A stretch of 64,000 nt of DNA from contig NW_026516214.1 in the NCBI RefSeq assembly GCF_025602895.1, positions 372,001 through 436,000 on the forward strand. The letters are read 5' to 3'. Below, in pieces: positions 50,836-53,639 of the stretch. Both the position numbers and the translations under genes were made by a program. Below the pieces are notes generated by a model. The model did not search any database. It saw only the letters and a program-made list of their open reading frames with translations, and was not told the DNA's origin. Origin of the DNA: Polychytrium aggregatum (taxonomy: Eukaryota > Chytridiomycota > Chytridiomycetes > Polychytriales). The stretch's first letter is position 1. Each line of letters begins with the position of its first letter.

Positions 50836-51669
50836 CTACTGTCGTGCGCGGCGTATCCGAGGGATTGGCGTCCACGACAGACATTCAGTTGCGATGTCAT
50901 CCAACACCGCCACGACATCCAGCCAGATCGCTGGTCTGTTGTTGAGGATTCGTTCGCGTTTGGCTCGCCATTTGCTCAGTTTTTCCTGGTCGATGGTGGC
51001 TGGTCTTGCGGGCACTCGAGCCAGCTTGGGGAGTGCGTCGATTGCAAGGTCGATGTACGTGATGCCTTCGGGGATCCTCGCAGGGTGTACATACTGCTCG
51101 AGACGGTTCTTGGCTCGGACACATTCCGACGCATGTTTCCTGTTCACGGGGACTTTGAGACCATTGGGTCCGGGCTTCCTGCACGCTCCATCAGGTTTGG
51201 GAGGGAAGCCTCCGACCCGCCAGAGAAACATTCTTCGGGCTTGAGCGACTGATATCACTGGCATCCGTGCGGTCAGGATAGGGTCTCCATCCCATTTGTA
51301 GGTGCCTGCGATCGACATCACCTTGTTTGGGTTTCTTTCCTTTTCGTATAAGCGCATAATCATTGCCTTCTTGATGGGAACGCCTGTCCCTGTCCCCTTC
51401 TCGAATAGGGCCGGTCTTGAATGCTCTGGGGAGGTTCTGTGCTGCTGTTCCAGCTCTTTCCAGGTGGCGTTTCCGGTCAGCTTGGAGAGGATCCTTTTGT
51501 TTGCATCCCTTACTGGGAGCTCCGCAATGTGTCTGAGCACCTGCGACGTGAGGAAGCCTGAGTCGCCCCTGCGATCGTACCAGCGGCCGAAGCACTTGAT
51601 CGTCAGTACTTGTTTCCGAGTTGACATGGAGTATATTCCTGGTACACTTGGAACAGTTGCAAAGCGCAA
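50836..51669 (-). pseudogene. Probable 5'-truncated retroelement-like fragment
   Basis: A 277-codon open frame with no good cellular match. The segment ARRMFLWRVGGFPP, followed by ACRKPGPNG and then RKHASECVRAK, has Cys and His spacing reminiscent of the C-terminal zinc-binding end of non-LTR reverse transcriptases. The upstream reverse transcriptase part is missing. The first dozen codons overlap the left end of the large palindrome, so the fragment appears cut there. A short tandem repeat lies beyond its stop at 50715-50752. It could instead be a lineage-specific gene; I rate the retroelement reading as moderate at best. Confidence 0.35.
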
Positions 51670-51770
51670 TAATCAAGCACGATGCGACGGAGAGAGCGAG
51701 GCAGATGGCCAGAGCGTCAGAGTGGTTAGAGTGTCAGAGTGTCGGAGTGGTCAGGGCCGAGCCACACCAG

Positions 51771-51830
51771 CAACAGCCAGCAACAGCCAGCAACAGCCAG
51801 CAACAGCCAGCAACAGCCAGCAACAGCCAG
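51771..51830. repeat. CAACAGCCAG array, six copies (left arm)
   Basis: Six exact 10-bp units; the mirrored array in the right arm at about 53281-53320 has four. Confidence 0.95.
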
Positions 51831-52018
51831 CAAAGCCGCTGCGACTCTGAATGCGGACACTGGGCCGGCGGGTGGCTGGTGGGCTGACTACAATCTGGAG
51901 GCGACATGGACAGATGGGCGACAGATGGGCGACAGATGGCTGACAGGCGGCTGACAGATGATAGACAACCCGCCCAGATTAGCCTGGTCATATATGCGTA
52001 TTGGTGTAATTGGATCGA

Positions 52019-52089
52019 GCCATGATAGTATAGTGGTAGTACATTGCGTTGTGGCCGCACCGACCCTGGTTCGATTCCAGGTCATGGCA
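52019..52089 (+). tRNA. tRNA-His (GUG), left arm
   Basis: 71 nt. Acceptor stem GCCATGA pairs with TCATGGC, followed by discriminator A. The anticodon loop TTGTGGC reads GUG, and the T arm CCTGG-TTCGATT-CCAGG pairs fully. The internal A box (TAGTATAGTGG) and B box (GGTTCGATTCC) are recognisable. The anticodon stem has a T-C mismatch at its outer pair and the D loop is one base shorter than the usual eukaryotic tRNA-His. Confidence 0.93.
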
Positions 52090-52094
52090 TTGTC

Positions 52095-52099
52095 TTTTT
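52095..52099 (+). terminator. RNA polymerase III T-run of left tRNA-His
   Basis: TTTTT five bases after the mature 3' end. Confidence 0.8.
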
Positions 52100-52181
52100 G
52101 CTCTGCTCTGTTCTGCCGTTTCGTCTCTTCGTCCCTTCGTCTCTTCTTCTTTCGGCCTGCATTTGCATTTGCTGTTTCTTG

Positions 52182-52235
52182 CATCTCCTGCATCTCCTGC
52201 ATCTCCTGCATCTCCTGCATCTCCTGCATCTCCTG
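52182..52235. repeat. CATCTCCTG array, six copies (left arm)
   Basis: Six exact 9-bp units; the mirrored array in the right arm has five (about 52896-52942). Confidence 0.95.
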
Positions 52236-52756
52236 CACGATCGGCATGATTTGTACTGCTTGAGTCTTCGCCGCCCTGCTCTCTCCACCTGCTTGCACTC
52301 CACTCACCGTCACTCCACCACTCGTCGCCAGTCCGCAATATCCCGCATCTACTCCACCAAAGCCACCAGCATTCGTCTGCCCAGTTCAAGTCCGCCGATA
52401 TCGATACTCCGTGGCCACTTGTCCTGTGTTTCCAGCTCACCACGGCGCTCACATCGATGCCGCCGATACTTCAGGCACCATCAACTGACATTCCGCACCA
52501 ATATTGTCAAGGCCAGACCCGTCCTGCTCCTGCTCCGGCGCTGGCTAGCTGGCTCGCCAACTCTCCCACCATGGTCATCATGCCGGAAGGCCCGAGTATC
52601 CGGCTCAATGGTGGACATCTGGGCCGCAGACCAACGAGCATCCGGGAGACAGATTGGTTGCGATCCGGTGTGGGCATGCAGGCAGGGACATCCAGACATC
52701 GGACGCAGCAGTGTGGAGATTCTCAACAAGTCGACCAAGACTGAATCGGGAGTGGT

Positions 52757-52800
52757 GGGAGTGGGAATGGGAGTGGGAATGGGAGTGGGAATGGGAGTGG
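52757..52800. repeat. GGGAGTGGGAAT array in right arm
   Basis: About 3.7 exact 12-bp units, not mirrored in the left arm, so it arose after the palindrome formed or was lost from one side. Confidence 0.9.
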
Positions 52801-53013
52801 AGCGTGAGTGGAGCGTGAGTGGTGTGCAAGCAGGTGGAGAGAGCAGGGCGGCGAAGACTCAAGCAGTACAAATCATGCCGATCGTGCAGGAGATGCAGGA
52901 GATGCAGGAGATGCAGGAGATGCAGGAGATGCAAGAAACAGCAAATGCAAATGCAGGCCGAAAGAAGAAGAGACGAAGGGACGAAGAGACGAAACGGCAG
53001 AACAGAGCAGAGC

Positions 53014-53018
53014 AAAAA
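53014..53018 (-). terminator. RNA polymerase III T-run of right tRNA-His
   Basis: AAAAA on the plus strand, TTTTT downstream of the minus-strand tRNA. Confidence 0.8.
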
Positions 53019-53023
53019 GAGAA

Positions 53024-53094
53024 TGCCATGACCTGGAATCGAACCAGGGTCGGTGCGGCCACAACGCAATGTACTACCACTATACTATCATGGC
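53024..53094 (-). tRNA. tRNA-His (GUG), right arm
   Basis: Exact reverse-complement copy of the left tRNA over all 71 nt, including the shortened D loop. Its upstream flank is conserved and its T-run is intact, so it should also be transcribable. Confidence 0.93.
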
Positions 53095-53639
53095 TCGATC
53101 CAATTACACCAATACGCATATATGACCAGGCTACTCTGGGCGGGTTGTCTATCATCTGTCAGCCGCCTGTCAGCCATCTGTCGCCCATCTGTCGCCCATC
53201 TGTCCATGTCGCCTCCAGATTGTAGTCAGCCCACCAGCCACCCGCCAGCCCAGTGTCCGCATTCAGAGCCGCAGCGGCTTTGCTGGCTGTTGCTGGCTGT
53301 TGCTGGCTGTTGCTGGCTGTTGCTGGTGTGGCTCGGCCCGACCACTCCGACACTCTGACACTCTAACCACTCCGACACTCTGGCCATCTGCATCGCTCTC
53401 TCCGTCGCATCGTGCTTGATCCTTGCACTTTGCAACTGTTCCAACTTTGCCCGCAGCATCAATATTTGTTTCCAAGGCCTCTCCAGCATCGTGATTTTGG
53501 ATTTGCTGTATATTTCGCAGGTTTGATTTGGTTATATCTCATTTCCTCCTCTTGAGAATGAGACTCACCGAAACATGAACTCCTCTGAGCCATCTTGGAC
53601 ATGATCGGCTGATATCAATGCATTTTCCGGGTTTGATCG

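Follow-up and report, generated by a model that had tools for sequence, protein, structure and literature searches.

The window analysed here, a 64-kb stretch of contig C24 (C24:372001-436000) from an assembly of 64.7 Mb in 418 contigs, contains an imperfect palindrome, P1. It probably represents a block with a tRNA gene that was duplicated in inverted orientation, as one member of a series of mirror-image tRNA gene pairs in this genome. The genome is probably fungal, to judge from a fused CPSase-ATCase protein and a dihydroorotase motif that appears degenerate. The initial annotation had described P1 as a palindrome carrying identical, inward-pointing tRNA-His(GTG) genes, and this is confirmed by ARAGORN, Rfam and the alignment of the arms. 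Indeed, exactly two tRNA genes were found in the 64-kb window, by ARAGORN and by Rfam at the gathering threshold; both are tRNA-His(GTG), and they score 62.8 bits each against RF00005. P1 consists of two much-alike inverted arms around a unique spacer (Table 1), with an identity of 93.8% when gaps are counted and 11 mismatches in 630 aligned columns.

Table 1. Features of palindrome P1 (window positions) and location of the sister palindromes P2 and P3 (contig positions).
Feature	Position	Strand	Evidence or remark
P1 left arm, 660 bp	51648..52307	+	inverted match to 53444-52815
10-bp minisatellite CCAGCAACAG, 7.2 copies, left arm	51767..51837	.	TRF
tRNA-His(GTG), left copy	52019..52089	+	ARAGORN; Rfam RF00005 62.8 bits
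T-run 3' of left tRNA, putative Pol III terminator	52095..52099	+	read in sequence, function inferred
9-bp minisatellite TGCATCTCC, 6.4 copies, left arm	52180..52237	.	TRF
P1 spacer, 507 bp	52308..52814	.	P2 / P3 copies on C24 99% / 98% identical
P1 right arm, 630 bp	52815..53444	-	
9-bp minisatellite, 5.4 copies, right arm	52885..52933	.	TRF
T-run 3' of right tRNA, putative Pol III terminator	53014..53018	-	read in sequence, function inferred
tRNA-His(GTG), right copy, same sequence as left copy	53024..53094	-	ARAGORN; Rfam
10-bp minisatellite, 5.2 copies, right arm	53276..53326	.	TRF
17 bp beyond P1 right arm	53445..53461	.	common to P2, absent from P1 left flank
P2	C24:461823-463714		arms 698 and 686 bp
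P3	C24:550871-552602		arms 607 bp at 99.5%, each with tRNA-Leu(CAA) and tRNA-His

The arms of P1 differ in length by steps of 20 bp and 9 bp in minisatellites, plus one single-base indel. The 20-bp difference lies in the CCAGCAACAG array (10-bp unit) and the 9-bp difference in the TGCATCTCC array (9-bp unit); the GACAGATGG array (11-bp unit) has equal length in both arms. Thus the single-base differences reported between the arms stand, and the minisatellites that differ are two, not three. Cruciform extrusion is improbable with a 507-bp spacer. The first ATG of an open frame on the minus strand (window 50836-51627) lies some 20 bp away from the left edge of P1, and a stop-to-stop frame of 398 aa spans P1; neither frame has a Pfam match, and the 398-aa frame was judged to be a chance occurrence.

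Long inverted repeats are otherwise scarce on this contig. Over 173 kb of C24, examined one locus at a time (the window and 11 further stretches, those holding P2 and P3 excluded), the longest inverted match apart from P1 measured 103 bp (79%). A joined scan of 163 kb and 30 kb of C24 for matches of at least 200 bp yielded one additional inverted match, which joins sites 75 kb apart over 326 columns at 82%. Judged from the sequence, with contig C24 alone as background control, it is confirmed that the P1 palindrome is not due to chance.

Beyond the window, neighbouring tRNA genes of the same isotype are mostly inverted relative to each other. The survey covered 200 tRNA genes, which were grouped into 18 isotype lists and include those on paired haplotype contigs, and drew on an Rfam tRNA search (best 63 of 1357 candidates scored) and on DNA searches seeded from palindromic loci (for the search behind list Glu90, 40 of 45 candidates were scored). 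The tRNA types were set by the match to the query, and groups in the Rfam list by equal score; left out of the tally were 19 non-tRNA (minisatellite) rows of the P1-arm search, 8 weak rows (80% matches) at the same places as list Glu90, and 8 weak tRNA-Pro rows. Among these 200 genes, 51 of the 58 adjacent same-isotype pairs no more than 26 kb apart are inverted and 7 are direct. When loci were collapsed by hand, 22 inverted stood against 4 direct (p=2.7e-4, seed loci included); removal of the pairs lying wholly in seed loci left 27 of 34 inverted and 7 direct; and the list of 64 genes, made of the 63 best-scoring Rfam tRNAs and one added gene, gave 12 of 12 inverted pairs and 0 direct. The 7 direct pairs comprise three Asp pairs on C358 and, on C164 and C112, a tRNA-Phe tandem with a distance of about 3.2 kb, which enters the count twice on each of the two contigs.

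An inverted neighbour within 26 kb is present for 96 of the 200 listed genes and absent for the other 104, some of which sit at contig ends. Partner genes lie 1 to 25.5 kb apart, and C13, C46, C157 and C334 hold at least two pairs each. Two other classes of Pol III genes gave samples too small to judge by, namely 2 matches for 5S rRNA (best 47 of 4242 candidates scored) and 4 for U6 (best 48 of 2484). None of these matches has a partner within 26 kb; C201 holds two inverted U6 genes separated by 50 kb.

Similarity at these loci extends well beyond the tRNA genes. Twenty of the 22 inverted loci were measured, and inverted similarity was found at all 20. Arms of at least 600 bp (0.6-2.2 kb) are present at 16 of them, the length being a lower bound for the 7 arms that reach the end of the stretch read, and short arms of 117-267 bp are found at the remaining four (C257, C46, C375 and C409). 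In the only direct pair measured (Asp, C358), similarity is confined to 85 bp, namely the tRNA itself. Moreover, in the nine fully bounded long arms the tRNAs lie near the middle (KS p=9e-5, or 2.6e-5 with P2 omitted as non-independent of P1), and the shorter side makes up on average 0.415 of the flanks, against 0.25 under random placement. Most loci have two copies of the block; a third Trp-Arg copy is located on C39, 5 kb away. Set against the expected place on C257, this third copy gave no match, and neither an empty site nor a newborn duplication was found.

Comparison of haplotypes indicates that the arms interact. Five pairs were compared in two haplotypes, the allelism of the paired contigs being deduced from their near-identity, and their variable sites comprise 18 of copying type, 5 of left/right type, 0 of cross type and 16 others. 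Given as copying, left/right and other, the counts are 4, 1 and 0 for C356/C367 (one 635-bp match of the second haplotype was used), 9, 0 and 0 for C190/C172, 0, 0 and 6 for C413/C268, 5, 1 and 10 for C416/C157, and 0, 3 and 0 for C409/C279. The excess of 18 over 5 is significant in a sign test (p=0.011); since sites within a locus are linked, this result stands on three loci. New variants shared by both arms within a lineage were thus observed at three of the five loci. At C190/C172, nine substitutions and an array difference of about 90 bp are common to both arms of one haplotype, and the differences stop at the block edges, where the similarity between arms ends abruptly.

Furthermore, the spacer of C416/C157 is inverted between haplotypes (2008 columns, 98.9%), as expected of crossing-over between arms. 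The outer flanks of this pair are colinear, with 1000 bp at 100% on the left and 937 bp at 99.7% on the right, and a tRNA-Pro gene about 106.7 kb to its left is on the same strand in both contigs. C416/C157 is the one flipped case among five informative pairs, inversion of the spacer being absent in C190/C172, C413/C268, C15/C333 and C409/C279. In the part compared, C15 and C333 show 100% identity, and C333 could therefore be redundant. The spacer orientation is also the same in C39/C257, two contigs whose allelism is uncertain.

Inverted pairs, arm-to-arm copying at three loci and one inversion were observed, and together they point to tRNA loci that were duplicated in inverted orientation and have recombining arms. 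In a first step, a block of about 0.6-1.4 kb centred on a tRNA gene or cluster would be copied in inverted orientation nearby, placing partner genes 1-25 kb apart; the most likely mode of copying would be a template switch by a replication fork held up at the Pol III gene, which is the origin we infer. The arms would then recombine, as seen at other pairs, with conversion keeping them alike within a haplotype and crossing-over being able to flip the spacer. Finally, pairs that do not recombine would decay until little matches beyond the tRNA genes held by selection. To this, C24 adds a local event, in which the palindrome was copied as a unit to two other places. The initial suggestion of a tRNA gene amplified by inversion is therefore supported, in the form of an inverted duplication, and P1 looks less like a mobile element than like one instance of a broader tendency of this genome. 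A broader and more tentative proposal is that tRNA genes of this species may be hotspots of inverted duplication, much of the nuclear tRNA set being arranged as mirror pairs of Pol III-centred blocks that are kept alike by conversion and flip their spacers, driven by the genes' own fork barrier.

The orientation bias could also be a matter of survival. Both orientations would be duplicated, direct copies would be lost by single-strand annealing or unequal crossing-over, and inverted copies, which can only convert or flip, would persist, so that no mechanism specific to inverted copies is needed. The direct Asp pair on C358, alike over 85 bp only, is what would be expected if long-armed direct copies vanish. 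However, the direct tRNA-Phe pair persists at 3.2 kb in C164 and C112, and the centring of the blocks on tRNAs suggests a process that starts at the tRNAs. In addition, a survey of tDNA clusters in 74 eukaryotes reports that most pairs less than 1 kb apart are parallel (PMC2888827), which argues that loss of direct copies is not dominant in general. We therefore consider survival a possible but somewhat doubtful account of the whole pattern; deletion of direct copies is nevertheless a serious rival where the orientation bias is concerned, and may act as well as inverted duplication.

The history of P1 itself can be followed through its two sisters. Long matches to the P1 spacer occur at two other places, each on C24 and in the same orientation, at 99% and 98%, the remaining matches of the spacer being of 45-50 bp from its repeat-rich end. 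The two long matches belong to P2 and P3, which both have the spacer and the tRNA-His of P1, and the neighbouring DNA of the three palindromes contains no match of at least 200 bp between them. The local copying of the unit to two more sites of C24 is real. Between P1 and P2, 4 substitutions keep left and right apart, 0 are of copying type and 7 are of other types, and the gap events comprise 2 of copying type and 4 others. Since the left arm and the right arm retain their own bases at these 4 sites in both P1 and P2, the palindrome is older than its copying.

Between P1 or P2 and P3, similarity ends at the 5' end of the tRNA-His on both sides. Outward of the tRNA-His, the outer arms of P3 are unlike those of P1 and P2, yet alike each other. 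Both P3 arms have a shorter minisatellite and one base absent from P1 and P2, and one site still separates left from right. Arm-to-arm copying would be the easiest explanation for this symmetric replacement. Conversion is weakly visible at P1 itself; the gene conversion between arms that the initial annotation had considered for P1 is thus borne out at other tRNA pairs, by the 18 copying-type sites, and is weak at P1.

A unit of spacer and tRNA-His found at three places of one contig, without common neighbouring DNA, could bring to mind a transposon of the foldback or TIR kind, inserting at new sites after it had captured tRNA genes, much as had been proposed for P1. We regard this as very unlikely, and the data do not support a foldback-type mobile unit, as no clear target-site duplications were found: the longest direct repeats are 5 bp at 30 block edges and 6 bp around P1-P3, and no common terminal motif was seen by eye at 15 outer edges. 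Moreover, the blocks of different loci carry different tRNAs, the long spacer matches are confined to one contig, and the open frame beside P1 is without Pfam match. A search of the assembly argues against dispersal of the P1 arm as well, since it occurs elsewhere only as tRNA plus terminator and as minisatellite.

In fission-yeast centromeres, tRNA genes lie within inverted repeats around a core. The pairs described here have the same geometry, tRNAs in inverted repeats flanking a unique core, and their spacers can hold open frames (e.g. 448 aa on C13), which would fit a selected architecture where paired inverted tRNA clusters serve as chromatin boundaries around the core. Such a role is hardly probable in view of three pairs within 130 kb of one contig with cores of 0.5 kb, of the contigs bearing at least two pairs, and of the wide range of distances between partner genes. 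The fission-yeast centromere is present once per chromosome, whereas here many non-identical pairs occur per contig; several pairs per contig argue against centromeric tRNA inverted repeats. Finally, assembly or read artefacts such as fold-back chimeras almost certainly do not account for palindromes of this type: several contigs do end in or near tRNA arms (e.g. C333, C375 and C280), a sign of assembly trouble, but the spacers are unique, the arms have diverged, P1 and P2 have common left- and right-specific bases, and paired, haplotype-like contigs hold equivalent structures, all of which agrees with the initial view that P1 is not a hairpin assembly artefact.

Inverted duplication with recombining arms has partial counterparts in other systems. 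Gene-bearing inverted repeats of Caenorhabditis, whose arms are thought to co-evolve by gene conversion, are the nearest case in the literature. Like the human Y palindromes cited in the same article, they resemble the present pairs in that their long inverted arms carry gene copies in convergent or divergent orientation; the Caenorhabditis repeats involve protein genes at few loci, whereas here tRNA blocks are involved at many loci, with the tRNAs central and one spacer inversion between haplotypes (PMC1803023). In budding yeast, recombination between inverted repeats is stimulated by an adjacent fork barrier, and in half of the products the sequence between the repeats is inverted; the system uses an engineered Tus/Ter barrier and a reporter, whereas here the tRNA gene is the putative barrier (PMC8748988). 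ODIRA is similar in its replication-based origin of inverted copies and in its palindromic junctions, but starts from an inverted triplication, whereas at most loci measured here two discrete blocks, each about 1 kb long, flank a unique spacer. Antiparallel tRNA pairs do occur in the 74-eukaryote survey, with a head-to-head or tail-to-tail bias in some species, and inverted copies of whole tRNA blocks, as found here, are not described in its accessible sections (PMC2888827). A literature search restricted to best matches, and including few subscription journals, returned no report of genome-wide mirror-image pairs of nuclear tRNA genes. The Dictyostelium genome paper is said to mention tRNA gene pairs.

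It has long been asked what keeps dispersed copies of a tRNA gene identical, and here the identical copies are accompanied by flanks that are likewise kept alike from one arm to the other. If the broader proposal above is correct, the pairs would constitute a concerted-evolution system for dispersed tRNA genes. They would also connect tRNA genes, known to act as replication barriers, with a durable mark on the structure of the genome. The haplotypes are snapshots of conversion and inversion, which makes the process datable and testable.

Several loci display particular arrangements. The tRNA-Lys(CTT) genes of C333, C375, C280 and C21 lie no more than 1 kb from a contig end, and C335 is also listed among those near contig starts; identical tRNA arms may thus break the assembly. 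On C46 (C46:194286-209707), six tRNA B-box sites are in exact mirror symmetry, their paired positions summing to 403993, and several tRNA units seem to be nested in a single long palindrome whose arms would measure several kb; the left half of this palindrome was read. Four tRNA-Phe genes at exact mirror positions are found in each of C164:7932-28543 and C112:1348926-1369543; on C164 the inner flank of the tRNA-Phe is 100% identical over 1174 bp in inverted orientation, which hints at far longer arms.

On C375 (stretch L022 4211-6430), a near-spacerless palindrome of 536 bp at 96% lies between two divergent tRNA-His genes. The related C335 (stretch L023 5128-7544) carries a unit of 309-311 bp in three copies at this place, and C62 (stretch L024 1-1269) begins at the corresponding point, which is a possible rearrangement site. 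Around the Trp-Arg pair, C257 and C39 are 99.97% identical over at least 2.9 kb, and the match ends 310 bp outside the tRNA-Trp gene (C257:464921 / C39:93620), at a possible rearrangement breakpoint.
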